From: Ruminococcus sp. HUN007
GTDB lineage: Bacteria > Bacillota > Clostridia > Oscillospirales > Ruminococcaceae
Assembly: GCF_000712055.1 (NCBI RefSeq)
Contig: NZ_JOOA01000001.1
Location: 310,001-374,000 of the forward strand
DNA length: 64,000 nt
Direction: 5' to 3'
The notes below the pieces were generated by a model. That model saw only the letters and a program-made list of their open reading frames with translations. It was not told the origin of the DNA and did not search any database. Position numbers and translations under genes: made by a program. Shown here one piece after another: positions 6,711-63,862 of this stretch; positions within the stretch are counted from its first letter, which is position 1; each line of letters begins with the position of its first letter.

Positions 6711-6982
6711 ACTAAAAAAGCCCGTCCCAAAGCGTTTTAACTTTGAGACGAGCATCATATCGATTCCCGCGGTACCACTCAAATTGTGCTGCATTTCTGC
6801 AGTCACCACTTACAAGCTCGAATAAGCTTTTTACTTTTACGCAGCATCACGGGAACACTTACATAAATTTTCAGTGTTCCAGCTCAGAAGGGATACAAAT
6901 CATTGCTTATGTCCGGCTCACACCAGCCGCCGGCTCTCTGTACAAAGAGGCAATCATTTACCTGTCTTCTTCACAGCTATTA
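6711..6982 (-). promoter_or_regulatory. T-box riboswitch controlling the ligase fusion gene
   Basis: Minus-strand leader of about 270 bases. It contains the T-box core GTGGTACCGCGG (complement of the bases around 6767-6778), a long Stem I with an AGAGAGCCGG...GTGAGCCGG arm at about 6910-6950, and a terminal hairpin at 6714-6753 followed by a U run. T-box leaders bind uncharged tRNA and then form an antiterminator. I could not fix the specifier codon: the 3' side of the likely specifier bulge reads GATTTGTATCCC, allowing UUG (Leu), GUA (Val) or UAU (Tyr). Confidence 0.9.
6714..6753 (-). terminator. T-box regulated terminator
   Basis: GCTCGTCTCAAAG pairs with CTTTGGGACGGGC around a short A-rich loop, followed by TTTTTT on the minus strand. 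Its 5' arm lies just after the T-box sequence, as expected for the alternative to the antiterminator. Confidence 0.88.
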
Positions 6983-6987
6983 ATTTT

Positions 6988-12765: not shown

Positions 12766-12804
12766 GGTAAAGATAATATTTTGTTTAACAAGAACGGATG
12801 CAAA

Positions 12805-14964: not shown

Positions 14965-14988
14965 TGCGATGTTCATAAGCTGCATAAC

Positions 14989-15037
14989 AAAACACACCTT
15001 TCGTGAACCGTTCGTTCACTGAAAGGTGTGTTTTTAT
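14989..15037. terminator. Bidirectional terminator between the helicase gene and polC
   Basis: AAACACACCTTTC pairs with GAAAGGTGTGTTT around a loop with a smaller inverted repeat (GTGAACcgttcgTTCAC). A and T runs on the two flanks serve both convergent genes. Confidence 0.9.
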
Positions 15038-15072
15038 TATATTTCGAGTCTGAAAGTCATCCGAAAGAATCA

Positions 15073-19419: not shown

Positions 19420-19434
19420 CCGGCTTCTCCGTTC

Positions 19435-20472: not shown

Positions 20473-20530
20473 GTGAAATACCTCCGGAATTTTAAATACT
20501 GACTCATTGATCTGCCAGGTAAATTTCCTG

Positions 20531-42063: not shown

Positions 42064-42117
42064 ACTCATAACCTCCGTTATTTACTGTTCATTATTTCAT
42101 ATCGTCCGGTATTATCA

Positions 42118-47999: not shown

Positions 48000-49376
48000 T
48001 CATTCATAAAGTATCACCGAAACAGTGAATACACTGCCATCCGGTCTGAAGGAGCAGGTGCCGTCATATTTTTTTGAAATGATCTCTACAGAGCCGGTTC
48101 CGATGCCTTCGCCGACGTGCTTGGTGGATTTGAAAAGCCCGTTTTCGGTTCTTGTCGGCGCTGTGACAAAGCTGTTTTTTATGATGACCGAAAGGCTGTG
48201 TTTTCCCTGACTCGTTGTTTTATATGTGGAAGTCAGGTCGATAAATCTGCCGTCTTCGACCTCCGTACATGCATCAGCTGCATTTTCAAGAAGATTTCCG
48301 AACAATACGGCAAGGTCTTTCCTGTCGGCAAAAATATCTTCCGGAATATCGGCTTTCACGGAAAATGCGATATTGTTTTTATACGCCCTTTCAGAATAAA
48401 ACGCCAGCACGATATTTACAGTTTCATTCTCGCAGAAGACCAGCGGCTGATCAAGGCAATTCTCCTCAGTGTATGTATCTATAAGTTCGTCAAGTGCGGA
48501 AATATCTCCGCTTTGGCGTATCTGTCTGAGCAGTGCTGTGTGGTGACGCAGATCGTGCCTTGTACGGCGCATATTTTCAAGGCGTTCATTCAGACTGTCA
48601 TACTGCAGTCTTTGTATGGAAAGAACATGATTTTCCGTAAGCAGTGCAGTGTTCCTTTTGTAGAGTTCAGCAGTCTGGATGATAATACGGTAAATGATCA
48701 CCGTACCAACGTCAATAATAAGCAGATACAGATTATTGATCAGGCTCATAAAGCTCTCAAACCCCTGAAGATGTGAAGCATAGAAAAACTGTGCCTCTAT
48801 TAAATAAAAGACTGCAGGAACTATCCAGAGATACCGCCAGAGATAATTTCCGATATTTTCGTGATCTGCCGTATCATTTTCTGCTGCGTCATGTGAACAG
48901 ATATTCCGGAATACAAACAGATAAATAAGCGGCAGCTCGACTAACAGTATCAGCATCATAAAAAGAGGATAGGTAAAGTGATACTGAAGTTTCGCACATT
49001 CCGGGAAAAACAGGTTTTCGAGAAACTTTCCGCAGTAAACTGAAAAATCCCCGAGATTACTTAAAACAAGAACGGTAAAAATCAGCTTTCCGATATGTTC
49101 TTTCAGCGCAATGAAAATAAACAGGATATAGAAAACAGCTATTATCATATCACATAACGAACTGTATGATTCAGATACCATATAAAACTGTATCTCGCGG
49201 AGAATCGTCTGAACAACCAAAATGATTCCGGAAAATGCAAATGTGACTTTTTTCCCGAAACGCCAGTGCCCTCTGAAAGTATACAATACCAGCGGGATGA
49301 ACGGAAACGAAGTTACTAATGACCACAGAACAGTTTCCCATATATGATACGGATATTGATTCACAGTAATATGCAA
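48000..49376 (-). CDS. AgrC-like sensor histidine kinase (GHKL)
   Basis: About 458 residues. Six or seven hydrophobic helices fill the first ~225 residues, then a dimerisation helix with the H-box RRTRHDLRHH (phospho-accepting His near 281), then a GHKL ATPase with the N-box LFGNLLENAADAC and the G-box GEGIGTGSVEII. This is the layout of the AgrC/peptide-sensing group. The start is uncertain: the frame opens at TTG 49376 directly after GGGGA, and GTG 49364 is 12 bases from it. The cognate response regulator is divergent on the other side of the shared promoter region. No AgrD-like peptide gene was recognised. Confidence 0.88.
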   Translation of the reverse strand: MHITVNQYPYHIWETVLWSLVTSFPFIPLVLYTFRGHWRFGKKVTFAFSGIILVVQTILREIQFYMVSESYSSLCDMIIAVFYILFIFIALKEHIGKLIFTVLVLSNLGDFSVYCGKFLENLFFPECAKLQYHFTYPLFMMLILLVELPLIYLFVFRNICSHDAAENDTADHENIGNYLWRYLWIVPAVFYLIEAQFFYASHLQGFESFMSLINNLYLLIIDVGTVIIYRIIIQTAELYKRNTALLTENHVLSIQRLQYDSLNERLENMRRTRHDLRHHTALLRQIRQSGDISALDELIDTYTEENCLDQPLVFCENETVNIVLAFYSERAYKNNIAFSVKADIPEDIFADRKDLAVLFGNLLENAADACTEVEDGRFIDLTSTYKTTSQGKHSLSVIIKNSFVTAPTRTENGLFKSTKHVGEGIGTGSVEIISKKYDGTCSFRPDGSVFTVSVILYE

Positions 49377-49485
49377 TCCCCTTTGTATTTTGATTTAAGC
49401 CGGCATACAGCCAGCAAACATAGTTTGCAGATATGCAAAGTAACATTAATATTTTATCATAGAAATCAAGCTTCGGCAAGTGGAA

Positions 49486-49549
49486 ATTCATGCATTAAAC
49501 AGAATAATTCGTGCATGGAATTTTCACAGTAAAAAAAATATGGTATAAT
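49486..49549 (+). promoter_or_regulatory. Response-regulator promoter with LytTR-type direct repeats
   Basis: ATTCATGCAT (49486-49495) and ATTCGTGCAT (49507-49516) are direct repeats 21 bases (two helical turns) apart. They lie immediately before a weak -35 (TTTTCA, 49521-49526) and a perfect -10 TATAAT (49544-49549) with a 17-base spacer. This is the classic layout for LytTR/AgrA activation. Confidence 0.72.
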
Positions 49550-49617
49550 TAAAAGGAAACGCATAAAAGGTTTTTGCGGTTACTACAATAGTAAAGATAC
49601 AAAAAGGAGTTTCCCTT

Positions 49618-50325
49618 ATGCTTATAGCGATATGCGATGACAGCAAAAAAGATGCCGAAATGATAAAATTTTCGCTTATGGACATTACCGATGAAATTGA
49701 AATCTTTTGGTTCAGTACAGGAGCCGAACTTATAGACAGCATAAAAAGCGGCACATTTTACACTCTGATCTTTCAGGACGTTTATCTTGAAAATGAGATT
49801 GGTGTGGATATAGCAAAAACCGTGAAGGAACTGTCTCCGGACACACAGATCATTTTTGTCACGACAAGTCTTGATCACGCAATAGACGCTTTCAGAGTAC
49901 AGGCAATCGACTATCTTGTGAAGCCATGCTCTGAAGCAGAAGTAGTAAAGGCGTTCAGCCGCGTGACCATGCGGATAAACAAACCTTCATCCTCATCCGT
50001 TGTGCTGAATTCAGGAAAAAATATTCGTATATTCTATCCGGAAAATGTCATCAAAATTGAAAGTGACCGCCATTATACCAATATATACTGTAAGAACAAA
50101 AAAACAGAACGTTTACTCATCAAGTTTTCAAGAGTGGCGGAGTCGTTTGATAAGAATTTTATAGAAATACGCAGAGGACTTCTTGTCAATCCGGAATTTA
50201 TCGAGCGAATCACCGGAGCAACGGTTATACTCTCTGACGGAAGCACGTATATACTGCCAAAAGCGAAAAAGGACAGTGTAATAACACAGTACACTGATTA
50301 TGTTACTAATCAGTCTGGTATATAA
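49618..50325 (+). CDS. LytTR response regulator (AgrA/LytR type)
   Basis: A 235-residue regulator. The receiver domain (1-120) has the acidic pair IAICDDS, the phospho-acceptor Asp54 in IFQDVYL and Lys in YLVKPC. The LytTR DNA-binding domain (about 135-230) has RIFYPENVIKIESDRHYTNIY and FIEIRRGLLVNPEFIERI. The kinase is divergently encoded. An AAGGAGT site precedes ATG 49618. The direct repeats in front of its promoter suggest that it activates its own gene. Confidence 0.92.
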   Translation: MLIAICDDSKKDAEMIKFSLMDITDEIEIFWFSTGAELIDSIKSGTFYTLIFQDVYLENEIGVDIAKTVKELSPDTQIIFVTTSLDHAIDAFRVQAIDYLVKPCSEAEVVKAFSRVTMRINKPSSSSVVLNSGKNIRIFYPENVIKIESDRHYTNIYCKNKKTERLLIKFSRVAESFDKNFIEIRRGLLVNPEFIERITGATVILSDGSTYILPKAKKDSVITQYTDYVTNQSGI

Positions 50326-51220: not shown

Positions 51221-51249
51221 TAGACTTATTTTTAATATTATTATATAAT
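51221..51249 (+). promoter_or_regulatory. Likely promoter of the nine-gene acyl/radical SAM operon
   Basis: TAGACT (51221-51226), 17 bases, TATAAT (51244-51249), about 45 bases upstream of the GGAGG site at 51291. No operator or riboswitch was recognised. Confidence 0.65.
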
Positions 51250-51303: not shown

Positions 51304-52869
51304 TTGGACTATCCATATCTTGATACAGTCATTTATGACAGCTTTTATGAAATGCTGAAAGGACGGTACGAAACAAGTTCTGACAATGTCGCCGTCCGCT
51401 TTATGTCAGGCAGCAGAATTACTGATATAACCTACCGGGAGCTTACCGGACACGTCGCTTCGCTGTACAGCTGGTTCCGTGAAAATGGTTATTCAGGCAA
51501 ACACATAGCGATCATCTCCGAAAACCGCTATGAATACATTGTTATTTATCTTGCTGCAGTTCTTGACAATGTCATTATACCGCTCGACCGTGAACTCGAC
51601 TCCGGAACACTTTTAAAATGCCTTGACGACTTTGATGCAGATCTTGTCTTCTGTACTGACAAAACAGCAGATAAAATACATGATACATCCGTAACAAAAG
51701 TAAATACCGACACTGAACTGCGTTCAGTTCTGGAAAAAGAATCTTCTGTTACGGAATTTTTTAAAAGTGCCTCAGGCACTGACAAGGACAGGTTTGCAGT
51801 GCTTGCCTCAACTTCCGGAACAGACGGAAACATAAAAGGTGTCATGCTCAGTCAGTATAACGTTATTGTAAACGTCCGCGGCACACTTGAAAACAACGTC
51901 CTGGGAAATCCGACACTGGCGTTTCTTCCGATGAACCACACATACGGATTCAACCCGTGTATGCTCGCAACTCTCTATAACGGGACAACACTCTGTCTGT
52001 GCACTCAGCTTAAGTACCTTATGCGTGACATAAAAACCTTCGACCCTTTCTTCTTCGGGGCTGTTCCTATGGTCATAGAAGGAATGTACGACGGTATTAT
52101 GCGTGAGATAAAACGCCGCGGAAAGGAAAAAGCTTTTGCCCGCATGGTCGCAGTAAGCAGATTCCTTCTGAAATTTAAAATAGACTTAAGGCATATTTTC
52201 TTCGGTAACTTCATTAACAAACGGCTGCGGCTTGTCGTAAACGGCGGTGCCGCACTTAACAGCGATCTGGTTGACAAATTCGGAGATCTGGGAATTACCA
52301 TACTCAACGGTTACGGACTCACCGAGTGCTCCCCTACCATCGCCGTCAGCAGAACCGGAAACAACGTAACCGGAAGTGCCGGAACTATAATGAAAAACAT
52401 AGATGTAAAAATCGCAGATGACGGTGAAATACTTGTAAAAGGACCGAACGTTATGCTCGGATACTACAAAAACAAAGAAGCGACTGATGCCTGTATGCAT
52501 GACGGGTATTTTGCCACAGGCGATATCGGCTATACCGAAGGCAGAGTAATTTTCGTAACGGGGCGCAAAAAAAATCTCATTATAACTGAAAACGGAAAAA
52601 ATGTTCCGCCTGAATATCTTGAAGCAAAACTCGCAAAGCTGCCGTACGTTGCAGAATCACTTGTGATCCCGTCACGTTCCGGAAAAACGACAGTTCTCAA
52701 AGCCCTTATCGTCTTAAAGGAAAATGAGGACGGAAAGACGCTTTCTGAAGACATAAAACGTATAAACTCTGAGCTTCCTGATTACATGCATATAGACGAA
52801 CATGAAATAATGAAAACAGGATTTGAAAAAAACAGCTCAAAAAAGATAAGGAGAAACCTGTATGTTTGA
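51304..52869 (+). CDS. Acyl-adenylating ligase (acyl-CoA/acyl-ACP synthetase)
   Basis: A 521-residue AMP-forming ligase and the first gene of the operon. Core motifs: LASTSGTDGNIKGVMLSQYN (P-loop, about 168-185), FLPMNHTYGF, NGYGLTECSPTIAV, YFATGDIGYTEG, RKKNLIITENGKNVPP and the catalytic-lysine end KNSSKKIRRNLYV. Overall it resembles long-chain fatty acyl ligases. The start is TTG 51304, eight bases after GGAGG; no ATG fits. The ACP gene overlaps its last eight bases, so acyl transfer to that carrier protein is the natural reading (inference). Without modelling, acyl-ACP and acyl-CoA formation cannot be told apart. Confidence 0.88.
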   Translation: MDYPYLDTVIYDSFYEMLKGRYETSSDNVAVRFMSGSRITDITYRELTGHVASLYSWFRENGYSGKHIAIISENRYEYIVIYLAAVLDNVIIPLDRELDSGTLLKCLDDFDADLVFCTDKTADKIHDTSVTKVNTDTELRSVLEKESSVTEFFKSASGTDKDRFAVLASTSGTDGNIKGVMLSQYNVIVNVRGTLENNVLGNPTLAFLPMNHTYGFNPCMLATLYNGTTLCLCTQLKYLMRDIKTFDPFFFGAVPMVIEGMYDGIMREIKRRGKEKAFARMVAVSRFLLKFKIDLRHIFFGNFINKRLRLVVNGGAALNSDLVDKFGDLGITILNGYGLTECSPTIAVSRTGNNVTGSAGTIMKNIDVKIADDGEILVKGPNVMLGYYKNKEATDACMHDGYFATGDIGYTEGRVIFVTGRKKNLIITENGKNVPPEYLEAKLAKLPYVAESLVIPSRSGKTTVLKALIVLKENEDGKTLSEDIKRINSELPDYMHIDEHEIMKTGFEKNSSKKIRRNLYV

Positions 52870-53092
52870 TGAAATAAAAAAACTGCTCTCAAAAGAGTAC
52901 GGAATAAATGATCTGTCACCGGAAATGAACTTCAAGACAGATCTCGGACTGAATTCCTTCGACCTTATGAACCTTCTGTGTATTGCCGAAGAGGAATTCG
53001 GGATCGAGATTGAAGAAGAAGAATACCGTCATCTGAATACAGTCGGAGAAATGAGTGCTCTTCTTGAAAAACTGACAGGACAGAAAAGATGA
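52862..53092 (+). CDS. Stand-alone acyl carrier protein
   Basis: A 76-residue acidic four-helix carrier protein. The phosphopantetheine serine is Ser32 in LGLNSFDLMNL, where the usual DSL reads NSF. Helix 2-3 (AEEEFGIEIEEEEY) has the typical negative face. It would carry an acyl or aminoacyl group as a thioester. The gene overlaps the ligase upstream by eight bases and the acyltransferase downstream by four, so the three are translationally coupled. It is not part of a fatty-acid synthesis cluster, which marks it as a pathway-specific carrier. Confidence 0.9.
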   Translation: MFDEIKKLLSKEYGINDLSPEMNFKTDLGLNSFDLMNLLCIAEEEFGIEIEEEEYRHLNTVGEMSALLEKLTGQKR

Positions 53093-54180
53093 CGGAAGTT
53101 ATCAGAGCAGACAGCAGAGCTCTTCAGAAAAAGCTTCTTGACTTCAGGAAAAAGCTGTATTCCGGTCAGGGTATTTATGTTGACAACAACTACTATATGC
53201 TTAAGGAGATCTTCTCGGGGAAACTGAATTTCATCAAAAACATGTCCGTCTGTCCCCTCATGGTAACTGAAAACGGGAAGATAATCTGCTGCGGGATCAC
53301 AGCTTATACAAAGGAGCTTCCGGAATACATACAGCTCTGTTTTTTCGAATCTCTGCCTGACAGAGCTGACGCAGCAGAAATGCTTGTCCGTGAAACTGAG
53401 AAAATCGGAAAGGAACACGGATGCAGCAAGGTCGTCATCGGTCTTTACGGCCATGTCAACTACGGACTCGGCCTTCTTGATTCCCATTTTGAAAAGAAGA
53501 ATTCCTTCTCATCCCCGGGCAATCCCGCTTACTACAACGACTACTTCCGCAGTCTTGGCTGCAGCGAGACCAGACTCAGTTCATACTTCACTTCAAAGCT
53601 CGATGACCGCCTTAAACGTTTCGACCGACTCATCGCAAAACTCGAACGTTCATACGAATTCCGCTGTTTCGACAAAAGCAGGTTCACTGAATATGCAAAG
53701 ATCTATACCGATCTTAACAACTCATGCTTTACGGAACACCGCTACTATTATAAACGCTGCTATGAAGATGACTGCGAAATGCTGAAAACTCTTTTCCTGT
53801 TCATGAAGGAGGATTCTCTTGTTTTCGCTTATCACAACGGCAAACCGGTCGGTTTTATCATGTGGTATCCCGACTGGAACGAACTTGCCGCCCCGGGAGA
53901 AGCATTCGGAACGAAACATTTTTTCCTTAACCTTCTTAAAGGAAAGAGCATCAGAACAGGCAAGGTAATGGAATACGGAGTACTTAAGGAATACCGGTCT
54001 TCCGGACTTCCGATGGCACTTATAAAACACGTTTACGACTCAATGAAAAAACAGGGATGCGTACAGATGGAAACTTCCTGGATACTCGATGAAAACACGG
54101 ACTCAAACAGTTTCTGCAAAGCACTCTGTGATGAAACGTATAAAAAATATGTTGTATATGAAAAAGACATTGTACAATGA
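53089..54180 (+). CDS. GNAT-fold N-acyltransferase (first of two)
   Basis: A 363-residue protein. The C-terminal half (about 205-350) has a GNAT-like core: KPVGFIMWYPDWNE, then EYGVLKEYRSSGLPMALIKHVYDSM, which looks like the pantetheine-binding loop and helix. The N-terminal half shows a similar but weaker fold (GKIICCGITAY), suggesting a tandem GNAT. Such proteins transfer acyl groups from CoA or ACP to amines. The four-base overlap with the ACP gene hints that acyl-ACP is the donor (inference). No signal peptide or membrane segment. Confidence 0.75.
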   Translation: MTEVIRADSRALQKKLLDFRKKLYSGQGIYVDNNYYMLKEIFSGKLNFIKNMSVCPLMVTENGKIICCGITAYTKELPEYIQLCFFESLPDRADAAEMLVRETEKIGKEHGCSKVVIGLYGHVNYGLGLLDSHFEKKNSFSSPGNPAYYNDYFRSLGCSETRLSSYFTSKLDDRLKRFDRLIAKLERSYEFRCFDKSRFTEYAKIYTDLNNSCFTEHRYYYKRCYEDDCEMLKTLFLFMKEDSLVFAYHNGKPVGFIMWYPDWNELAAPGEAFGTKHFFLNLLKGKSIRTGKVMEYGVLKEYRSSGLPMALIKHVYDSMKKQGCVQMETSWILDENTDSNSFCKALCDETYKKYVVYEKDIVQ

Positions 54181-55186
54181 CCTGAAAGCAAGCATAAGCG
54201 AATCACCGGAAGAAATATTCGGCATAATAGAAAAAAGCCCTGCTGTCAGAAAAGAATATCCTGATTCCCGGCTTCCGTGGCCTTTCACGCTGGAAATGCT
54301 TACTCTTCTCAGAACAGCCAATCCTCTGCCGCAGAAATATTATTTTCTGGAATGCGGTGAAAAATATGCTTTCTTCACCATGTATCTTAACCGCATGGAT
54401 CTTTTCACGTTCGGAAAAGCTAAATTTTTCATGAACATCCAGACGATAGCATTTCCCTGTTCACTCAGCACAGGCGGATACATAACAAACGACATTACAA
54501 TGATGCTTGAATACATAAAGAACATACGCGGATGCAAGCTGGTGCTCAATATTCCCGGGCAGGTTAAAGTCAGAGGCATGGCACACGGCGAAACTCTTCC
54601 GTCGTGTGTGCTGACAATACCGGAAAATATCAAAAGTACTGACGACTATCTTGCTTCCATGAGGAGCGCATACAGAAGGCGTATAAATCTGGCACTGAAA
54701 AGATGCAGTGATATAACTGTAAAACTGATCCATGACGGAAGCACAGATGTTCATCCGCTCTATCTTCAGACATTTGAACGTTCTGAATACAAACTCGAAT
54801 GTCTTGAAAAAGAATTCTTTGACCGTGTGCAGGGCGACAGGATCCTGTTTTTACGAAACGGAAAACCGGCGGGATTCGTTCTTCTGAAAAAGAACGGCAG
54901 TGAGCTGGTATTCATGCTCTGCGGCATGGACTACCATTATGATACAGCCGATCTCTACTTCCTTATGCTCTTCAAGATCGTGGAATACGCAATACAGAAC
55001 GGGTGCCGTACCGTTGATTTCGGTCAGACTTCGGAAACAACAAAGCTGAGGTTCGGCGCCCTGCTTAACAGACGCTATTTCTGCGCTCATCACACCAATA
55101 TTTTTCTCAATCTTTTTGCCATGGCAGGAAAACGCATTCTCGAATACAGATACAGCTTTCCTGATCACAAGGTTTTCAGCAAATAA
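54158..55186 (+). CDS. FemAB/BioF2-like GNAT acyltransferase (second of two)
   Basis: About 342 residues. The C-terminal part matches the GNAT 'Acetyltransf_6'/FemAB pattern: YLASMRSAYRRRINLALKR, KPAGFVLLKKNGSELVFM and the closing CRTVDFGQTSETTKLRFG. Family members make peptide bonds with aminoacyl or acyl donors. The start is uncertain: ATG 54158 (MKKTLYND) overlaps the previous gene by 23 bases and lacks a clear ribosome site, and in-frame ATG 54131 and 54089 also exist. Its place right after the first GNAT suggests that the product carries two acylated or amide-linked positions (inference). Confidence 0.75.
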   Translation: MKKTLYNDLKASISESPEEIFGIIEKSPAVRKEYPDSRLPWPFTLEMLTLLRTANPLPQKYYFLECGEKYAFFTMYLNRMDLFTFGKAKFFMNIQTIAFPCSLSTGGYITNDITMMLEYIKNIRGCKLVLNIPGQVKVRGMAHGETLPSCVLTIPENIKSTDDYLASMRSAYRRRINLALKRCSDITVKLIHDGSTDVHPLYLQTFERSEYKLECLEKEFFDRVQGDRILFLRNGKPAGFVLLKKNGSELVFMLCGMDYHYDTADLYFLMLFKIVEYAIQNGCRTVDFGQTSETTKLRFGALLNRRYFCAHHTNIFLNLFAMAGKRILEYRYSFPDHKVFSK

Positions 55187-55236
55187 CTTCCGCACGGTCA
55201 GTTTTTCTGAACGACGGAGAAATCAATGAGGTAATT

Positions 55237-56601
55237 ATGAAAGTACTGCTTTTCAGGCCAAGACCGGACAAGGAAACGATCGGACTTCAGAACGTCATGA
55301 TATGTGAGCCGCTTGAACTCGAATACATATCTGCAAACATTGAAGCTGCCGGACACGAATGCCGGATCATTGACATGATAATAGAAAAGAAAAGTGTCCG
55401 GTACTTCGTGGAGGAATTTCATCCTGACGTTGTGGGTATAACCGGATATATCTCGCATGTTAATATAATGAAATCGTACGCCCGCGAAGTCAAACTCTGC
55501 AACAGCCGTATCAAAACGATAATCGGCGGTGTTCACGCAGAAGTAAACCCGCAGGATTTTGAATCAGAATACGTTGACTTCATCATACGTGCAAACGGTA
55601 TACGTACATTTACCGAAATACTTGACAGTCTCGAAGGAAAGACCCCGGCCGGTGATATAGACTGCATTTATCACAGGGACAAACCGGCTCCGGAAAAGGA
55701 AACTACATTCCCCTACCTCTATCCGGACAGAAACAAGGTCAGTAAATACCGCAGACATTACTACTACATGTTTCACCGCAACTGCAGTCTTATCAAGACT
55801 TCATTCGGATGTCCGTACAACTGTAAATTCTGTTTCTGCCGTCAGATCATGGACGACAAATATTTTGCACGGTCTCTTGACGATATAGTAAATGAACTGT
55901 CTCAGATAAAGGAAACCGAGATATACATCGTTGACGATGACTTTCTCGTGGGACGTGAACGTATACTTCAGTTCTGCGATATGCTCGAAAAAAACGGCAT
56001 AGAGAAAAAATATCTCATCTACGGAAGAGCTGACTTTATTGCAGCCAACGAAGATGTGATCAGTCGCTTCAAGCAGGTCGGTCTGCGCGCAGTCATCGTC
56101 GGACTCGAATCATGCGACTCACGTCAGCTCGATGACTACAACAAGCGCACCAATGTTAATATAAACGAAAAAGCTGTAAGCATACTGTCAAAGTACGGTG
56201 TTGAATGCTATGGCACCTTCATTCTCGGACTGGACTGGACAAAGGAAGACTTTAATGCACTTTACCGCTGGATAAAAAAACTCGGCCTTGTGTTTGTAAA
56301 TCTGCAGCCGCTGACACCTCTGCGCGGCACGGAACTCTATGAAAAATACCGTCCGCGCTTTATTGTCCGGGAAGATGAATACGAAAAATGGGATCTTGCG
56401 CATCTTGTTGTAAAACCTGATAAGATCTCCGTACGACGCTATTACTGGTACACCATGGTGCTCTACTATAAAATCACTGCAAATCCTGTAAGCGCATGGT
56501 ATATGATAAAGAAGTATGGACTTCACGACACGCTCAAACTTACCTGGGGCGCAGCAAAAGTGAACACTCAGTACTGGAAAAAACTGATTGGAGGCAGATG
56601 A
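55237..56601 (+). CDS. B12-domain radical SAM enzyme 1
   Basis: A 454-residue enzyme. The N-terminal ~140 residues form a Rossmann-like B12-binding-type domain (FHPDVVGITGYIS, KTIIGGVHAEVNPQDF) without the DxHxxG loop. The radical SAM cluster motif is CPYNCKFC (C192, C196, C199), followed by IYIVDDDFLVGRERI, LIYGRADFIAANEDV, GLESCDSRQLDDYNKRT and LQPLTPLRGTELYE. The C-terminal ~90 residues are rich in Tyr and basic residues. Class B radical SAM enzymes use methylcobalamin for C-methylation, or do other C-C chemistry. GAGGT precedes ATG 55237. Paralogous to the next three genes. Confidence 0.88.
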   Translation: MKVLLFRPRPDKETIGLQNVMICEPLELEYISANIEAAGHECRIIDMIIEKKSVRYFVEEFHPDVVGITGYISHVNIMKSYAREVKLCNSRIKTIIGGVHAEVNPQDFESEYVDFIIRANGIRTFTEILDSLEGKTPAGDIDCIYHRDKPAPEKETTFPYLYPDRNKVSKYRRHYYYMFHRNCSLIKTSFGCPYNCKFCFCRQIMDDKYFARSLDDIVNELSQIKETEIYIVDDDFLVGRERILQFCDMLEKNGIEKKYLIYGRADFIAANEDVISRFKQVGLRAVIVGLESCDSRQLDDYNKRTNVNINEKAVSILSKYGVECYGTFILGLDWTKEDFNALYRWIKKLGLVFVNLQPLTPLRGTELYEKYRPRFIVREDEYEKWDLAHLVVKPDKISVRRYYWYTMVLYYKITANPVSAWYMIKKYGLHDTLKLTWGAAKVNTQYWKKLIGGR

Positions 56602-57935
56602 TGAAAAAGGCAGAAAAAAAGCTTAAAGTCCTTCTTATAAGGCCGAAATATTCTTCCATAGTTGCAAATCTTGAACCGCTCGGGCTCGAATACCTCGCAG
56701 GACTTGCGAATGAACTTAACATAGAATGCCGCATTCATGATGAATTCCAGTATCCGTGGACTTTCCGCTTTGAAAGGATGTGCCGGATCATTGAGGAAGG
56801 CGGATATAATTTCATCGGATTCAATTCAAATGCAAACACAGTGGATTATATAAAACTCCGCGCGTATCAGCTCAAGCAGAGATTTCCAGGCATTTTTATC
56901 ATGGTAGGCGGTCCGGAAGCAGAACTTAACTACCGTGATTTCTGTACAAAGTATACTGATCTCGTTTACCACGACAACGGACTTGCCACACTTAAAAATA
57001 TCTGGACTGAAGGGCTTACCAAAGAAGTTTTTTCCCGTCAGACCGGCATATGCTACCGCGGTGACAAAGGCTGGATCGTAAAGAAAAAAGGGGCTCCGGT
57101 GAACGGATTCATCGTAAAACCTGACAGAACTGCATTCTACAAGGGACTTAAAAAGAACTTCATCTTCATGAAAGGAAAGTACGCGCTCAGCAAAGCTTCC
57201 TTCTCATGTCCGTTCCGCTGCAGCTTCTGCTACTGCACAAAAATGAACAGCGGAAAGTACACTGAACGAAACATCATGGAAGTTGTCGATGAAATTCAGG
57301 AAATCAGGCACGACAGGATCTGGTTTGTAGACGACACCTTCTTCTTCGATGCAGACCGTGTTACAGCTTTCTGCCGCGAGGTTATCAGGCGCGGAATAAA
57401 AAAGAACTTTATGGCATATTCACGTGCCGACTTCCTTGCTGAACATCCGGAGGTCCTTCCCCTCGCCTACCGGGCTGGATTCCGTGATATTCTCGTCGGT
57501 CTTGAAGCTATTACAGACGACCAGCTCACTGACTACAACAAGCAGACTACCAGAGAAGAAAACATCGCAGCCATACGCAATCTTCATAAAAACCACATTG
57601 CGTGCAACGGACTTTTCGTTATCAGCCATACTGCAACACGCAAAGATTTCAGCAATCTTCTGAAGTTTATAAAGGAGAACAATCTTCTGTGGGTAGTTTT
57701 CGGGATTTTCACTCCGTACAAAGGTACTGACGCATATGATGAGTACAGGGATCAGCTCATAAACTTCAGGTCATGGAGGCTTGACGGAACCCATATAACC
57801 ATAAAACCCGAGAACATGTCATCCGTCGAATTCATGCTCCGCTACTATGCGCTCCACCTCATCACCTACCCTAAGATCATGACACGTACACTCACCGGTA
57901 CCGGTTATGATACAATGAAGAAAGGCTGGTTCTGA
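56601..57935 (+). CDS. B12-domain radical SAM enzyme 2
   Basis: A 444-residue paralogue of enzyme 1. The same order is seen: LLIRPKYSSIVANLEPLGLEYLA, FIGFNSNANTVDYI and GGPEAELNYRDF in the B12-type domain, then CPFRCSFC (SAM cluster), IWFVDDTFFFDADRV, MAYSRADFLAEHPEV and GLEAITDDQLTDYNKQT. ATG 56601 overlaps the previous stop (ATGA) and is six bases after GGAGG; the open frame 35 codons upstream is inside gene 1 and not used. The first part shares more with enzyme 3 than with enzyme 1. Confidence 0.88.
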   Translation: MKKAEKKLKVLLIRPKYSSIVANLEPLGLEYLAGLANELNIECRIHDEFQYPWTFRFERMCRIIEEGGYNFIGFNSNANTVDYIKLRAYQLKQRFPGIFIMVGGPEAELNYRDFCTKYTDLVYHDNGLATLKNIWTEGLTKEVFSRQTGICYRGDKGWIVKKKGAPVNGFIVKPDRTAFYKGLKKNFIFMKGKYALSKASFSCPFRCSFCYCTKMNSGKYTERNIMEVVDEIQEIRHDRIWFVDDTFFFDADRVTAFCREVIRRGIKKNFMAYSRADFLAEHPEVLPLAYRAGFRDILVGLEAITDDQLTDYNKQTTREENIAAIRNLHKNHIACNGLFVISHTATRKDFSNLLKFIKENNLLWVVFGIFTPYKGTDAYDEYRDQLINFRSWRLDGTHITIKPENMSSVEFMLRYYALHLITYPKIMTRTLTGTGYDTMKKGWF

Positions 57936-57936
57936 T

Positions 57937-59259
57937 ATGGAAAGATATTTATTTGTCCGTGTCCACTATGACACCCGTGTAGCCAGTCTTGAGCCTCTCG
58001 GTCTCGAATATCTCATGGCATGTGTCAAAGCTGAAGGAAGAGAATGCTGGATACATGACGAGGGCATCGAGGGTCCGTTCGGACGTTTCCGCCGTCTTCT
58101 TGAAAAGATAGACCGTCATAAAATTACATTCGTCGGTTTTTCCGTTATTTCCAATACTGCATGGTACGTACTCGACCTTATAGCAAAGCTGCGTGCCGCC
58201 CGCCCGAAGGTAAAGATCATGGTCGGAGGTCCCGAAGTTATAATCAACTACCGTGATTTCATGAAAAAAGGTATAGACTTTCTCTCATACGACAACGGTC
58301 TTGATTCCTTCCGCAAAGCTGTACGCGGTGATTTCAGGCCTGAGGTTATGAAAAAATGCACCGGTCACGCATTTCGTCTGAACGGAAAATGGGTGGCTAA
58401 TCCGAAAGGTGAACCGGTAAACAGCTATGGAATTTTCCCGGACAGAAGCCATTTCTATGACAACCAGGACAAGTTCCGCGTTCTTGCCAAGGGATGTTTT
58501 TCAGTAATGAAAACTTCTTTCTCATGTCCGCAGCAGTGTAAATTCTGCATTTCCCGTCAGTTCAACAGCTGCACATACAGGGAACGTGAGGACGGAGAGA
58601 TCATTGAAGAGATAATGAGTATAAAAAACGATAAAATATTCATTATAGACGATGATTTTCTTGTAAACCGTGAACGTGTCATCCGGATATGCAGAAAGCT
58701 TCTGGAACTCGGATGCAAAAAGACGTTTATGATATTTGCAAGAGCTGACAGTATAGTTCGCTGCCGCGATATCATGCCGCTTATCTACAAAGCCGGCTTC
58801 CGTGACATGCTTGTCGGACTGGAAGCTGTCGAGGATACTACTCTCGAAAAATACAACAAGAATTCAAGCGTTCATCTCAACAGACAGGCGATCAGTATCC
58901 TGCGCAGGCACAATATGGTCTGTGTCGGACTCTTCGTTATAAACTACGATTTTTCACATAAGGATTTCATGGCGATAAACAGGTTCATACGCGATGAAAA
59001 ACTTATCTGGGTGCTGTTCAGCATTCTCATTCCTTTCAAAGGAACTGCAATGTACGAGGAAAACAAGGACAGACTGTACAAGTACAAATACAAACGCACC
59101 GGCGGAACGAGCATTTTAATAAAGCCTTCAAAACTGCCGATGCTCCTTTTCAAAATGGAATTTGATTTTCTCTACTACGTAAACTATCCGCGTATCTACT
59201 GGGCCGGTATCACTGACCTGTTCAACAGGAAATACCGCAACGGCTCTGAAGAAAAATAG
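57937..59259 (+). CDS. B12-domain radical SAM enzyme 3
   Basis: 440 residues. ASLEPLGLEYLMACVKAEGRECWIHDE and GGPEVIINYRDFMKKGIDF (cited as regions) are nearly those of enzyme 2. The SAM motif is CPQQCKFC, followed by IFIIDDDFLVNRERV, MIFARADSIVRCRDI and GLEAVEDTTLEKYNKNS. It starts one base after the previous stop, with a GAAAGG site inside the upstream gene. Together with enzyme 2 it appears to be the most recent duplicate pair of the set. Confidence 0.88.
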   Translation: MERYLFVRVHYDTRVASLEPLGLEYLMACVKAEGRECWIHDEGIEGPFGRFRRLLEKIDRHKITFVGFSVISNTAWYVLDLIAKLRAARPKVKIMVGGPEVIINYRDFMKKGIDFLSYDNGLDSFRKAVRGDFRPEVMKKCTGHAFRLNGKWVANPKGEPVNSYGIFPDRSHFYDNQDKFRVLAKGCFSVMKTSFSCPQQCKFCISRQFNSCTYREREDGEIIEEIMSIKNDKIFIIDDDFLVNRERVIRICRKLLELGCKKTFMIFARADSIVRCRDIMPLIYKAGFRDMLVGLEAVEDTTLEKYNKNSSVHLNRQAISILRRHNMVCVGLFVINYDFSHKDFMAINRFIRDEKLIWVLFSILIPFKGTAMYEENKDRLYKYKYKRTGGTSILIKPSKLPMLLFKMEFDFLYYVNYPRIYWAGITDLFNRKYRNGSEEK

Positions 59260-59263
59260 TGCC

Positions 59264-60616
59264 ATGAAAATACTTCTTATCAAACCTGAGACTGTCGGGA
59301 TTTTCAGTTTCACCAATCTGGTTGATCACGAACCTCTTGAAATGGAATATCTCTTCACCGCTTTCAGAAACAGCGGTCATGAAGCTGTTATCTGGGACAG
59401 ACGATACGACATCACATCGCTCAGAAAGAAACTGAAAATAGAGAGACCCGATGTTGTATGCATAACCGGATACATCACCCAGCAGAAACTCATGATACGT
59501 TTCTGCAGTGAAATAAAGAAATACGACCCGCATATTAAAGTGATACTCGGCGGCTCCAATGTGGAAATCAATTACGAAAACTACTTCGGATCGGAAGCCG
59601 ATTATCTATATCATCTCAGCGGACTTGACAATCTTGTAAAGCTTTTAAATTGCATTGAGGAAAAAGGCTCACCGGATGATATTCCCGGAATATGTTTCCG
59701 AAAGGCCGGCTCATGGACAGTAAATCCCAAAGTGAAGGAGAGCCCTGAATCCCTTCCCGTTCCGGACAGAAGCTTTTTCTACAGCAACCGGAAACATTTC
59801 CGTTACCTCTGCTTCAGACCTCTTGCACTTGTCAAGAACTCCTTCAGCTGCCCGATGAAATGCAGTTTCTGTTTCTGTACCAATCGTAACGGCGGACACT
59901 ACGCATGCAGAAGCGCCGAAAGCCTTGTAAACGAAATCGCATCACTTGACGTCCCGAACGTACACATTACCGATGACAACTTTCTCGTAAGCCGTGAATA
60001 CCTCACGGAATTTATCCGTCTCATAAAGGAAAAAAATATTCATAAAAAATATCTCATCTACGGCAGAGCAGACTTTATAGCAAAGAACGCTGACATCATG
60101 AAGGAACTTGCCGGTATCGGTCTTGCTCTTGTCATGGTAGGCCTTGAATCAGCTGATGACGGAGAACTCGAATCCTACAACAAGCACACAACTGCAGATG
60201 AAAACCTTGAATGCATACGTATACTCAGTGAAAACAATATCCTTTGTGCGGGACTTTTCATCGTTCATCAGGGTATGAAAAAAGCAGATTTCGACCGGCT
60301 TTATAAATGGATAGCCGAGAAGGATATTATTCCGACTGTTTCAGTATTCACTCCGATGCAGGGATCAGCTGTCTACAAACAATACGAAGGAAAACTCATT
60401 ACAGACGACGTCACAAAACAGGATCTGTTCCACTGCCTTCTGAAACCCGAACACATGAGTACTGCGGCTTTCACATTCCAGTACTACAGGCTGTCACTGA
60501 AGCTTGCGTGGAAGAACAGAAACTCACCGCTTTACAGTGAAAATAATTATTTTCAAAGCACACTGTTTATTTTAAAGGTACTTCTGATCAGGCTGAAACG
60601 CCTGTTCAGTTTCTGA
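59264..60616 (+). CDS. B12-domain radical SAM enzyme 4
   Basis: 450 residues. The N-terminal domain has NLVDHEPLEMEYLFTAFRNSG and RPDVVCITGYITQQKL, closest to enzyme 1 (same ITGYI strand). The SAM motif is CPMKCSFC, then VHITDDNFLVSREYL, LIYGRADFIAKNADI and GLESADDGELESYNKHT. It begins four bases after gene 3 with little ribosome site of its own, so it probably depends on coupling. The C-terminal ~30 residues are hydrophobic and basic (LFILKVLLIRLKRLF), which might give membrane contact. Confidence 0.87.
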   Translation: MKILLIKPETVGIFSFTNLVDHEPLEMEYLFTAFRNSGHEAVIWDRRYDITSLRKKLKIERPDVVCITGYITQQKLMIRFCSEIKKYDPHIKVILGGSNVEINYENYFGSEADYLYHLSGLDNLVKLLNCIEEKGSPDDIPGICFRKAGSWTVNPKVKESPESLPVPDRSFFYSNRKHFRYLCFRPLALVKNSFSCPMKCSFCFCTNRNGGHYACRSAESLVNEIASLDVPNVHITDDNFLVSREYLTEFIRLIKEKNIHKKYLIYGRADFIAKNADIMKELAGIGLALVMVGLESADDGELESYNKHTTADENLECIRILSENNILCAGLFIVHQGMKKADFDRLYKWIAEKDIIPTVSVFTPMQGSAVYKQYEGKLITDDVTKQDLFHCLLKPEHMSTAAFTFQYYRLSLKLAWKNRNSPLYSENNYFQSTLFILKVLLIRLKRLFSF

Positions 60617-60633
60617 TAAAACAAGGGGGAAAA

Positions 60634-61953
60634 ATGAAAAAGAAAATATTGCTCATACAGCCTACACCATACGATCAGTACGGCAACCTTGTAAAAAAGA
60701 AAAGGCTCTACTTTGTCGGTCTGGCCCTCCCTCTTCTTGCCGCACTCACTCCTGATGATTTTGAAGTGGAACTGTGCTATGAAACCATCGAAAATGTTCC
60801 GTTCGACACCGATGCTGAACTCATCGGCATCAGCAGCATGGGTCATGCCGTTATGAGAACGATCGACATCGCAAAAAAATTCCGTGAACTCGGAAAGACC
60901 GTCATCCTCGGCGGATATATGGTATCCCTCATGCCGGAGGAAGCTCAGAAATACTGTGATGCGGTTATGATAGGTGATGCCGAGGAAACCTGGGGCGAAA
61001 TGATAAATGATTATCTGAACGGTACGCTGAAAAAAACATACCGGAAGAAACTCACCGAACTGGTAACGCCTCTTCCGCGGTATGAACTCCTGTTAAACAA
61101 AAAAATAGGAAACTTTCTCCCCGTTCAGGCCGGAAGAGGCTGCCCGAAGACATGCAGTTTCTGCTCCATCTACTGTCTCTACCACGGTCAGTATCTCAAA
61201 AGAAGCATTCCTGACGTGATCAGGGATATAAAACGGGTAAAGGAACTTGGTTTCAGACAGTTTCTCCTTCTCGATGACAACCTCTTTTCAAACCGCGACT
61301 ACGCGCTGGAGCTCTGTAATGAAATAAGGAAACTGAAAATGAAATGGATGACGCAGTGTTCCATCGACATCGCTGAAGACGAAGAACTGCTTAATGCTGT
61401 TCATGACAGCGGATGCTACGTACTGAGTTTCGGACTTGAAAGCATAAGCCGTGAAAGTCTTGTCGGCATGCAGAAAGCATGGGCACATCCGGACAGATAC
61501 AGCCGCCAGCTTGAAACAATACGAAAGCACGGCATTGACATTTCAACGGAAATGGTGGTAGGTGCGGAAGGCGACACACTCGAATCGATAAAAGCAACTG
61601 CCGGATTTGTTGAACGGAACCATATAACCGTTCCGCGCTTCTACATTTTAACGCCGATTCCGGGAACGCAGTATTACGATGAAATGAAAAAGCAGGACCG
61701 CATATATAACACTGATATGTACTCGTACAATTCATGTGAAGCGGTACACTACCCGAAAAACATGACCCCGGAACAGCTTACAAAAGCCTACTGGGATCTG
61801 TACAACGAAGTCTACTCCTACAGGTGCATACTGAAGCGGACGATATTTACAAGAAATTTCCTCATCCGTCCGTTTACATCCATGTTCTATTTCGGAGTGA
61901 ATGTTTTCTACCGTAATCACATCAAACACGGGATCGTTCCGAATATTATTTAA
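60634..61953 (+). CDS. B12-domain radical SAM enzyme 5 (divergent, BchE/DUF4070-like)
   Basis: 439 residues. It is clearly a different subgroup from the four before it. The N-terminal domain has IQPTPYDQYG, AELIGISSMGHAVMRTIDIAK and VILGGYMVSLMPEEAQKYCD; the SAM motif is GRGCPKTCSFCSIYC, and then FLLLDDNLFSNRDYA, SFGLESISRESLVGMQK and YILTPIPGTQYYDEM. This resembles the B12-binding/radical SAM/DUF4070 proteins. It has the strongest ribosome site of the operon interior (AAGGGGGA). Its product may act at a distinct step. It ends just before the operon terminator. Confidence 0.88.
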   Translation: MKKKILLIQPTPYDQYGNLVKKKRLYFVGLALPLLAALTPDDFEVELCYETIENVPFDTDAELIGISSMGHAVMRTIDIAKKFRELGKTVILGGYMVSLMPEEAQKYCDAVMIGDAEETWGEMINDYLNGTLKKTYRKKLTELVTPLPRYELLLNKKIGNFLPVQAGRGCPKTCSFCSIYCLYHGQYLKRSIPDVIRDIKRVKELGFRQFLLLDDNLFSNRDYALELCNEIRKLKMKWMTQCSIDIAEDEELLNAVHDSGCYVLSFGLESISRESLVGMQKAWAHPDRYSRQLETIRKHGIDISTEMVVGAEGDTLESIKATAGFVERNHITVPRFYILTPIPGTQYYDEMKKQDRIYNTDMYSYNSCEAVHYPKNMTPEQLTKAYWDLYNEVYSYRCILKRTIFTRNFLIRPFTSMFYFGVNVFYRNHIKHGIVPNII

Positions 61954-61957
61954 CACA

Positions 61958-61985
61958 CAAAAGGCACCCTCCGGGTGCCTTTATA
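61958..61985. terminator. Terminator of the acyl/radical SAM operon
   Basis: AAAAGGCACCC pairs with GGGTGCCTTT around a three-base loop. A and T flanks let it serve the convergent LRR-dockerin gene too. Confidence 0.88.
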
Positions 61986-62035: not shown

Positions 62036-63862
62036 TCAAAACTTCTCTATCTTCTTTGCAATAAATTGTCTGAGTCCTGCAAGGTCTGCAAGATCTACGT
62101 TTCCGTTGCTGTCAACGTCGGCTGCCTTACGCGCTGCTGCTGTTAATTCGTTCTTGTCAAGAAGATGGACAGAAAGAATTGAAAGGTCTGTTACATCGAT
62201 TTTTCCGTCGCTGTTCAGGTCGCCGGGGATGGGGTTGCTGAGAGCAACAAATCCGCGCCCGTTGTTCTTCGCATAATCCTGGGTGGTACTGCCCTCGTAT
62301 CCGTGAAAAACTCCAATGAAAAAATCGCCCTGGGAAGCGAACGTATTTTTTCCCTCAGCTATTTGGCACTCCGGGTTCAGGATCGTAACGGAGGACAGTT
62401 TCTGACACTTCTCGAAAGCACCTTCCTGGATCATTATCACACTTTCCGGAATCGTCACTGATTTCAGACTCGTGCAGCCTGAAAAAGCACCCTTGCAAAT
62501 ACCTATCAATGTGTCCGGTAAGTTCACGGAAGCCAGACTTGTACAGTCTTCAAAAACAAAGTCACTGATGGCGGTTTCGCCTTTCGGAATATTCACTGTC
62601 TGCAGACTAGTGCAGTGCGCAAACGCACCTTTATCGATCGCTGACACAGAATCCGGAATGAACACAGAGGTCAGATTTCCGCATTCACAGAAAGCAAATT
62701 CCTCGATTCTCCACACACTATCCGGAATTTTAACAGATGTCACACCCATACAGCCATAGAAAGAATACTGGTTAATATGCGTCACAGTTGACGGAACAGT
62801 AAATGCGCCTTTTTTGCCTCCAGGATAGAATTCCAGTTCTTTTTTATCTTTTGTATAGACAACACCGTCAATGCTGGTATATTCCGCATTCTTTGCAGAA
62901 ACATTAATTGCTGTAAGACCAGGACATTGAGCAAACGCCCAGTTTCCGATCAAATACACGTTAGCTGGAATGTTCACAGATGTCAGGCTGGAACATTTTT
63001 TGAAAGCCGAACCTCCTATCCATTTTACACTATCCGGAATTTTTATAGATTTCAGGTTCGTACATTCCGTGAATGCGCGGTCCGCTATGAATTCTAAATT
63101 GTCCGGAAGCGTCACGGATTTTAGATTTGAGCAGCAACCGAAACACTGAGTTTCAATCCCTTTTACACTGTTCGGTATGCTCACAGAAGTCAGGGATTTA
63201 CAAGAATCGAAAGCAAATTCTCCAATGCTTGTCACACCCTCGGGGATTGTCAGCGAAGTCAGACCAATACAGCCACAGAAAGCCCATTCTCCAATGCTTG
63301 TCACACCCTCAGGGATCGTCAGCGAAGTCAGACCACCACAGCCAGAGAAAGTCCATTCTCCAATGCTTGTCACACCCTCAGGGATCGTCAGCGAAGTCAG
63401 ACCACCACAGCCACGGAAAGCCTCGTTATTGATGACAGTCACTTTGGAGGGAATCTTGAAATTGGTCATTTTGCAGCAGTCAGCAAATGCACGATATCCG
63501 ATACTCATAACACTGTCCGGAAGTGTCACAGTTACTGCATCCTGGCAGCTTTCAAATGCACTGTCCCCGATATGAGTCACCTTACCCTGAACGATAATCT
63601 TCTTAATGTACGGATAATAGTCACCTAAAAAGGGAGTCGGGTTATCTTTGTCATAGTCATACATTTTTCCTGATCCGCTGATGGTCAGTGTCCCGTTTGT
63701 GTCGAGTACCCATGTTATATTATCTCCGCAGGTTCCTGACTTTTCTGTGACACGCACCCAACCCTCTCGCGTGTCAAGTGCATATGCGGTGATCGCCGCA
63801 GGTCCGCACAGGAATGCCGTGAACATACATAGTCCCGTCAGGACTGAGATTATTCTTTTCAT
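62036..63862 (-). CDS. Secreted LRR_5 (BspA-like) dockerin protein
   Basis: A 608-residue exported protein: a signal peptide (about 1-28, ending ITAYA), a short N-terminal domain ending in GTLTISGSGKMYDYD, and then about 18 LRR_5 repeats (about 85-525) of the type LTSLTIPEGVTSIGEWAFCGC. The C-terminal dockerin has two calcium loops, GDLNSDGKIDVTDL and ADVDSNGNVDLADL, and ends FIAKKIEKF. It should be held on the cellulosome or cell surface by a cohesin, with the LRR face free for binding a partner or fibre. Three neighbouring repeats are almost identical in DNA. GAGGAAAG precedes ATG 63862. Confidence 0.92.
   Translation of the reverse strand: MKRIISVLTGLCMFTAFLCGPAAITAYALDTREGWVRVTEKSGTCGDNITWVLDTNGTLTISGSGKMYDYDKDNPTPFLGDYYPYIKKIIVQGKVTHIGDSAFESCQDAVTVTLPDSVMSIGYRAFADCCKMTNFKIPSKVTVINNEAFRGCGGLTSLTIPEGVTSIGEWTFSGCGGLTSLTIPEGVTSIGEWAFCGCIGLTSLTIPEGVTSIGEFAFDSCKSLTSVSIPNSVKGIETQCFGCCSNLKSVTLPDNLEFIADRAFTECTNLKSIKIPDSVKWIGGSAFKKCSSLTSVNIPANVYLIGNWAFAQCPGLTAINVSAKNAEYTSIDGVVYTKDKKELEFYPGGKKGAFTVPSTVTHINQYSFYGCMGVTSVKIPDSVWRIEEFAFCECGNLTSVFIPDSVSAIDKGAFAHCTSLQTVNIPKGETAISDFVFEDCTSLASVNLPDTLIGICKGAFSGCTSLKSVTIPESVIMIQEGAFEKCQKLSSVTILNPECQIAEGKNTFASQGDFFIGVFHGYEGSTTQDYAKNNGRGFVALSNPIPGDLNSDGKIDVTDLSILSVHLLDKNELTAAARKAADVDSNGNVDLADLAGLRQFIAKKIEKF
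63222..63428. repeat. Three 69-bp tandem LRR repeats
   Basis: CCAATGCTTGTCACACCCT recurs at 63222, 63291 and 63360, and the whole 69-base unit is nearly unchanged, encoding LTIPEGVTSIGEW-type repeats. The other repeats of the gene are far more diverged, so this block is a recent expansion. Confidence 0.88.

Follow-up and report, generated by a model that had tools for sequence, protein, structure and literature searches.

An apparently undescribed, modular operon family of GNAT-fold transferases and predicted B12-binding radical SAM proteins in Ruminococcus sp. HUN007 and other Clostridia

The stretch of 64,000 nucleotides of Ruminococcus sp. HUN007 analyzed here (contig NZ_JOOA01000001.1, positions 310,001–374,000; hereafter the window) carries, at its positions 51304–61953, nine open reading frames (ORFs) of the + strand—lig, acp, gnat1, gnat2, and rs1 to rs5—which raise the question of whether a ligase, an acyl carrier protein (ACP), two GNAT-fold transferases, and five radical SAM proteins form a conserved unit and, if so, which of them constitute its core and what they might produce together. 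A first-pass annotation had read these genes as one tight operon with precisely those parts, and both statements were borne out: all nine ORFs were found where that annotation had placed them, packed with intergenic distances that, once the likely starts are applied, go from a 32-base overlap to a 50-base gap; and Pfam assigned to them, in gene order, AMP-binding, PP-binding, Acetyltransf_1, Acetyltransf_6, and five Radical_SAM domains, each of these last accompanied by a B12-binding match.

The operon is a conserved unit with a core of gnat1, gnat2, rs1, and rs5, to which decorating sets are added. Named genomes, when scanned with rs1, yielded 46 loci, and the set that we counted comprised 56 (the window, L001–L046, L084, L087–L093, and L106); L085 and L086 were omitted because they duplicate the genomes of L040 and L041, and L094–L097 because their matches were weak. 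After 16 of the 56 were dropped for having fewer than 700 bases past the operon on one side, 40 complete loci remained, all of which contained gnat1, rs1, and rs5, while 38 contained gnat2. The other genes were less constant: rs2 was found in 27 complete loci, rs3 in 22, lig and acp in 21, rs4 in 19 (or 20 if L003, whose copy fell under our 55% identity rule and was counted as rs4b, is placed with rs4 as in the tree), rs4b in 15, a methyltransferase gene in 14, and rsX in six. That rs1 occurs in the 30 loci found via rs1, and gnat1 in the nine found via gnat1, follows by construction; the reciprocal association does not, gnat1 being present in 30/30 of the former complete loci and rs1 in 9/9 of the latter. 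Since the arrangement is conserved in 46 named loci and in further genomes, a chance assembly is excluded. Furthermore, the order lig-acp-gnat1-gnat2-rs1-rs2-rs3-rs4-rs5, and with it the ligase–ACP–GNAT–radical SAM succession on whose conservation the first-pass annotation had staked its proposal, was seen again in many of the named loci. At the other extreme, L090 represents a minimal version, composed of only the four core genes. The rs2/rs3/rs4 and the rs4b/methyltransferase/rsX groups are mostly alternative tailoring sets between lineages, mixed loci also existing (for example, with rs2 together with rs4b and the methyltransferase); in one subgroup the methyltransferase gene lies immediately 5' of rs1. 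When the noncore ORFs of the 46 named loci were clustered, only this methyltransferase was common to more than six loci (13 loci). One of the loci, L043, has broken frames. In another, L091, a gene for a reverse-transcriptase protein (12784–14130), possibly part of a group II intron, separates rs1 from rs4 in a series of genes that otherwise resembles the operon.

The ligase and the ACP, which the first-pass annotation had taken for the heart of the system, are instead an optional loading module, since they are present in only 21 of the 40 complete loci; the 19 that lack them include L013, L041, and L087, which have the same rs2/rs3/rs4 set as the window. In the copies compared, the adenylation motifs of the ligase and the carrier serine are intact: TSGT, GYGLTEC, GRKKNLI, and a C-terminal Lys are conserved across 14 ligase rows with single-row departures, and Ser32 of the ACP, within LGLNSFD, is invariant in 16/16. 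The best NCBIfam match of the ligase was the long-chain-fatty-acid-CoA ligase model, at 176 bits against a cut-off of 476. A search of ten core-bearing genomes with the ligase profile produced no match at E 1e-40 in five, which genomes are thus without a ligase relative at that threshold; the match in the L018 genome was the operon copy, and those of the remaining matched genomes lay away from the operon (five off-operon matches of 547–594 amino acids, the two that were scanned being AMP-binding proteins). At the operon start of L093, a LysA-like pyridoxal-phosphate decarboxylase ORF (7736–8893) runs into the beginning of the gnat1 ORF, an arrangement that we take to be reminiscent of the carrier-bound amino acid decarboxylation in butirosin.

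As to the two transferases, the structural model of gnat1 is a tandem GNAT, with matches spanning residues 1–363, of which Pfam detects only the C-terminal GNAT domain. Its nearest folds were MAB_4324, a Clostridium glucosamine N-acetyltransferase, MshD, and the clavulanic-acid tandem GNAT, to which proteins it is nevertheless only 12–15% identical and for none of which do we know of a radical SAM setting. A Gly within an R/Q-x-x-G stretch, which we take to be the GNAT motif, is invariant in gnat1. The nearest folds of gnat2 were 9wqy/9wqx, FemX, FemA, and MprF, that is, double GNATs of the aminoacyl-tRNA-dependent type; because the modeled gnat2 folds like the FemX-type transferases, what it transfers may be an amino acid and not a fatty acyl chain. 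Among 20 members of the gnat2 family, PF13480 was matched in 19 and PF04339 in three. Lys319 of gnat2 is invariant, and may correspond to the catalytic lysine of FemX, which correspondence we offer as a lead only.

All five radical SAM proteins of the window contain CxxxCxxC, and PF02310 matched all five, with rs2 (31.9 bits) just under and rs5 (32.4 bits) just over the cut-off of 32.1; the D-x-H-x-x-G motif was found in none of the copies checked, namely those of the window and of up to eight other loci. By their domains rs1–rs5 are B12-binding (class B type) radical SAM proteins, for which cobalamin binding, and perhaps methyl transfer, would be predicted. Against the HpnR model (TIGR04367, cut-off 650), rs1 scored 179.7, rs4 147.5, rs3 120.9, rs2 112.4, and rs5 60.3 bits; against the BchE model (TIGR02026, cut-off 481), rs1–rs4 scored 93–135 bits; against the ladderane-type TIGR04072 (cut-off 360), rs1–rs5 scored 45–72 bits; and the best NCBIfam match of rs5 was ApyD, an enzyme of ribosomally synthesized and post-translationally modified peptides (RiPPs), at 89 bits against a cut-off of 750. 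When 129 radical SAM proteins from 32 loci were placed in a tree, they formed orthologue clades, with rs5 remote, rs2 and rs3 as sisters, and rs1 close to rsX, while rs4 and the rs4b-type proteins were grouped without being cleanly separated. A defense system was considered and rejected, PADLOC having returned only weak PDC-M51A matches (at most 47 bits) in rs1, rs3, rs4, and rs5. Three loci carry an extra module between rsX and rs5 (L027:14116–17386, L035:7305–9432, and L037:2460–4616) with an ABC-type ATPase, a HypB/CobW-like GTPase, and a carbon monoxide dehydrogenase-gamma-like iron-sulfur protein in all three—in L037 by similarity only—to which L027 adds a 240-amino-acid protein of no known kind and a thioredoxin-like protein; this module might serve to reduce the corrinoid or the cluster of the radical SAM enzymes.

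We thus have a real and apparently undescribed modular operon family built of known kinds of enzymes. No description of it was found in the open-licence literature, judged by titles and the start of abstracts, a scope outside which most subscription papers fall; and the family models used gave no known family assignment. The first-pass judgment that the operon fits no standard cluster class agrees with that literature, in which this combination of enzymes was not found described. Regarding its function, we tentatively favor a biosynthetic operon of anaerobes, horizontally mobile and modular, whose product would be a small molecule with an amide bond, perhaps a lipo-amide. In this scheme gnat1 would acylate an amine, with a pantetheine thioester (of CoA or ACP) as the donor; gnat2 would add an aminoacyl unit, perhaps from an aminoacyl-tRNA; and rs1 together with rs5 would effect the carbon-centered changes common to nearly all versions, be they methylation or the formation of a ring or a C–C bond. 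Lineage-specific sets—here rs2, rs3, and rs4; elsewhere rs4b, the methyltransferase, and rsX—would decorate the product further, and the ligase with its private ACP, in the window as in roughly half of the loci, would activate a free carboxylic acid as the donor. We lean toward a product that is internal or membrane-bound, since an adjoining exporter is rare and rs5 is highly conserved. The absence of a transporter, noted in the first-pass annotation, holds for the window operon and for most loci, and none is generally shared across the named loci; the statement fails for L011, L013, L014, and L016, where a MatE transporter gene is found beside the operon, so that some lineages may have an exporter.

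Those four MatE genes weigh against an internal or membrane product, and several further observations weigh against the biosynthetic scheme just outlined or against parts of it. The scores of rs1–rs5 are far under every NCBIfam cut-off shown, and for that reason methylation and cyclization are indistinguishable. Cobalamin riboswitches, whose presence in 8/8 core-bearing genomes accords with the scheme, are common elements, being present also in 8/14 control genomes. The main Pfam match of gnat2 is the generic PF13480; compared with the solved aminoacyl-tRNA transferase sequences, gnat2 gave no match at E ≤ 1; and likeness of a modeled fold is no proof of tRNA use. The core itself is not without gaps, gnat2 being absent from L023 and L046, and rs5 from the 8.6 kb following rsX in L034, a locus outside the 40-locus count. 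Finally, although gene content, the division into core and optional parts, orthology, and predicted folds are established, every reaction, the substrate, and the product are deduced from the genes.

The systems nearest to this operon each share a part of it. HpnR, the hopanoid C-3 methylase, and BchE resemble rs1–rs4 over most of their length in combining B12-binding and radical SAM domains; rs1–rs4 nevertheless score far under both cut-offs, and the operon is devoid of hopanoid or chlorophyll genes. In butirosin biosynthesis BtrJ-BtrI-BtrK-BtrH activate an acid on a private ACP by means of a ligase of a different family, and in the mitomycin pathway MmcB reportedly takes part in carrier-protein loading; the likeness consists in the acid activated on a private ACP and in the LysA-like ORF at the operon start of L093, whereas the present operon has no sugar genes. 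In the candidate ladderane clusters of anammox bacteria, an ACP, a B12 radical SAM enzyme, and a methyltransferase are proposed to cooperate (PMC2649909), which set in an anaerobe is similar to ours; those clusters, however, are described there as devoted to fatty-acid synthesis, and rs1–rs5 reach only the TIGR04072 scores given above. The predicted double-GNAT fold of gnat2 is closest to the aminoacyl-tRNA-dependent GNAT-fold transferases (Sba18/Sbb17, FemX), albeit without detectable sequence similarity to the solved members; a review (PMC12945691) includes DhpH, PacB, and VlmA in that category and, in the part consulted, names no partner B12 radical SAM enzymes.

Among the alternatives, the first-pass version has survived best, though we consider it rather unlikely: the ligase would load a fatty acid on the ACP, the radical SAM enzymes would alter several of its carbons, and a transfer to an amine or lipid would give an unusual membrane lipid or lipo-amide. 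The best NCBIfam model of the ligase, albeit at 176 versus 476 bits, the best match of rs1–rs4 to the lipid-acting HpnR, and the lack of an adjoining transporter in most loci—as a membrane component would predict—are consistent with that proposal; but the loader is missing from 19 complete loci, in three of them alongside rs2, rs3, and rs4, the best folds of gnat2 are aminoacyl transferases, and the highest HpnR score falls far short of 650. If, alternatively, gnat2 acted in the manner of FemX or MprF, attaching amino acids to the headgroup of a lipid, to peptidoglycan, or to some surface polymer while the radical SAM enzymes modified that polymer or its precursor, we would be dealing with a modification of the cell envelope, which proposition we regard as improbable: apart from the methyltransferase no gene is widely shared in the 46 named loci, so that no partner cell-wall enzyme is apparent; moreover, the patchy presence in Clostridia (13 strong matches among 391 genomes) better suits an accessory product.

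Still less probable is the tailoring of a RiPP, or of a product of a nonribosomal peptide synthetase (NRPS) or polyketide synthase (PKS), encoded elsewhere. B12 radical SAM enzymes do occur in RiPP clusters, rs5 has ApyD as its best match, and MatE genes flank four loci; in addition, in L044, from an Alkaliphilus metagenome-assembled genome (MAG), an AMP-ligase/ACP/ketosynthase protein and an NRPS protein (13088–20952) start some 360 bases past rs5. That adjacency may, however, be due to chance, because the genome is rich in NRPS genes, with 63 Condensation matches, while the L018 and L038 genomes have none. The first-pass statement that no PKS, NRPS, or precursor gene is present holds for the window operon, and there is no room for a precursor peptide inside either that operon or L090, though small ORFs in the flanks and elsewhere were not searched. 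Hopanoid methylation, or another known pathway of the HpnR, BchE, or ladderane type, we reject as exceedingly improbable, for, notwithstanding the best matches of rs1–rs4 to HpnR and BchE, every score is far below its cut-off, a full-length squalene-hopene cyclase domain was present in 0/10 genomes (partial PF13243 matches in five, above the cut-off in three, the longest covering 150/319 positions and that of the window genome 57 positions, below the cut-off), and FabF, FabZ, and phytoene-desaturase-type genes are absent from the operon.

The distribution of the operon bears on the mobility that we have proposed for it. The 46 named loci belong mostly to Lachnospiraceae, many being from rumen or gut samples, and also to Acetivibrio, Alkaliphilus, Epulonipiscium, and Defluviitaleaceae. 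A gnat1 match was obtained in 35 of 391 sampled Clostridia genomes, and was strong (E 1e-75 or better) in 13, counting the window's own genome and two from Acetivibrio already in the named set; each of these 13 has gnat2 and a radical SAM gene of the operon close by. The 22 weaker genomes were not counted as carriers, since the 14 loci re-matched were 22–25% identical and the partners were missing; those genes were absent from the weak short gnat1 loci and from four wider regions (L094–L097). The Ruminococcaceae, across which the first-pass annotation had suggested comparing gene order, do include two genomes with a gnat1 match, both of the window's genus; these are, however, the only ones among 119 sampled genomes of the family, and the named carriers are mostly Lachnospiraceae.

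Compared with the Lachnospiraceae carriers L009, L018, and L026, respectively, the window genome has an RpoB identity of 61.4, 61.8, and 63.3%, whereas the identity is 86, 86, and 81% for rs5; 82, 79, and 74% for rs1; and 64–75% for rs2–rs4; and the window radical SAM proteins sit among those of Lachnospiraceae in the tree. Because rs1 and rs5 are more alike than RpoB and gnat1 is found in only those two sampled genomes of the family, a horizontal transfer between bacterial families is likely, resting on part of the operon; against that conclusion, lig, gnat1, and gnat2 are 42–63% identical to the same three loci, no higher than RpoB. With L041 of Acetivibrio the comparison comes out the opposite way (RpoB 67.0%, rs5 61%, rs1 51%), from which we conclude that the divergence between those two operons is old.

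Relatives of the two transferases extend further. For the divergent gnat1 of L093, relatives of about 50% identity included, among the matches listed (120 of 540), one each from Bacteroidota, Calditrichaeota, and a Deltaproteobacteria MAG; for its gnat2, those listed (120 of 414) were named as Clostridia, Bacteroidota, and Bacteroidales. The proteins P0132, P0135, P0173, P0259, and P0283 are the members of the gnat1 and gnat2 families that reach Bacteroidota, Calditrichaeota, and Deltaproteobacteria, the last two with gnat1 only. When the 120 relatives listed for each protein were compared, 19 longest contigs were of exactly equal size against about 1.3 expected (17 versus 0.05 at sizes of at least 5 kb), so that gnat1 and gnat2 relatives very probably share contigs, one of them from Bacteroidota. 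No operon relative was found in viral contigs; and in the plasmid search, beyond the best match in Acetoanaerobium noterae, the matches listed had only 21–25% identity. That best match (L106:9004–17032, with gnat1, gnat2, rs4b, the methyltransferase gene, rs1, rs5, and rsX) comes from a 2.6 Mb record labeled as a plasmid, with almost no annotation, which is probably a mislabeled chromosome.

Within the window, the operon is bounded upstream by a divergent gene for a DNA-alkylation-repair homologue and downstream, past a hairpin (Table 1), by a convergent gene (62036–63862) for a large protein with BspA-type leucine-rich repeats and a dockerin. The scan that gave this hairpin produced 18 terminator-like sites versus 11.6 expected. 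A TAGACT-17-TATAAT site at 51221–51249 was set aside as promoter evidence because the promoter scan returned 27 sites against 23.7 expected. The Rfam scan of the window revealed no riboswitch near the operon, its sole match being a T-box leader RNA (6741–6983, − strand, 116.5 bits). Divergent genes for a GHKL sensor kinase and a LytTR response regulator lie upstream (48000–50325), and genes of that type were not found among the ORF clusters common to at least four named loci. A 1168-amino-acid dockerin protein (38563–42069) and a BspA-type repeat protein (45442–47751) are also encoded, and the dockerin and BspA-type proteins of the window point to a host of the cellulosome type that resembles Ruminococcus.

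Table 1. Coordinates of the operon genes and the following hairpin in the window, and of the MatE genes beside the operon in four other loci.
Feature	Description	Position	Strand	Remarks
lig	Acyl-adenylating ligase, optional loading module	51304..52869	+	521 aa; TTG start, preceded by GGAGG; PF00501, 181.7 bits
acp	Stand-alone carrier protein, 76 aa	52862..53092	+	PF00550
gnat1	Tandem GNAT acyltransferase, core	53089..54180	+	
gnat2	Double-GNAT FemX-like transferase, near-universal core	54158..55186	+	ORF opens at 54089; likelier start 54149 or 54158
rs1	B12-binding radical SAM, HpnR/BchE-like, core	55237..56601	+	PF02310, PF04055; HpnR model 179.7 bits (cut-off 650)
rs2	B12-binding radical SAM, tailoring	56598..57935	+	Own tree clade; start 56598 by ATGA overlap, ORF opens at 56496
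rs3	B12-binding radical SAM, tailoring	57937..59259	+	Own tree clade, sister to rs2
rs4	B12-binding radical SAM, tailoring	59264..60616	+	Clade shared with rs4b-type proteins
rs5	B12-binding radical SAM, different subfamily, core	60634..61953	+	Separate deep clade
Hairpin	Terminator-like, after rs5	61960..61982	Listed on −	10-pair stem, 6 G-C
MatE	Upstream of operon	L011:4483-5946	Same as operon	
MatE	Upstream of operon	L014:4315-5775	Same as operon	82% identical copy of that in L011
MatE	Downstream of operon	L013:18863-20260	Convergent	About 25% identical to the L011/L014 pair
MatE	Downstream of operon	L016:16389-17807	Convergent	About 25% identical to the L011/L014 pair

The comparison among loci corrects an easy misreading, in that the core consists of the unfamiliar genes, whereas the most familiar, those for the ligase and the ACP, are optional. 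If the biosynthetic reading that we favor is right, the operon would represent novel B12-radical chemistry in anaerobes of the gut and the rumen, from a cluster family unassigned by the models used, and its product would be directly testable, given the natural four-gene and large versions and the presence of both carriers and noncarriers inside the window's own family. We may go a step further and suggest, with still greater reserve, an unrecognized class of anaerobic biosynthesis, of which the window operon would be a large form. Here a tandem GNAT and a FemX-like transferase, the latter drawing on aminoacyl-tRNA, would form amides in concert with two B12 radical SAM reactions at the core; the decorating sets would be exchangeable and the ligase–ACP loader optional. 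Should that be true, then with the gnat1–gnat2 pair in Bacteroidota, and perhaps in other phyla, the class could be widespread in anaerobes and its family of products entirely new.

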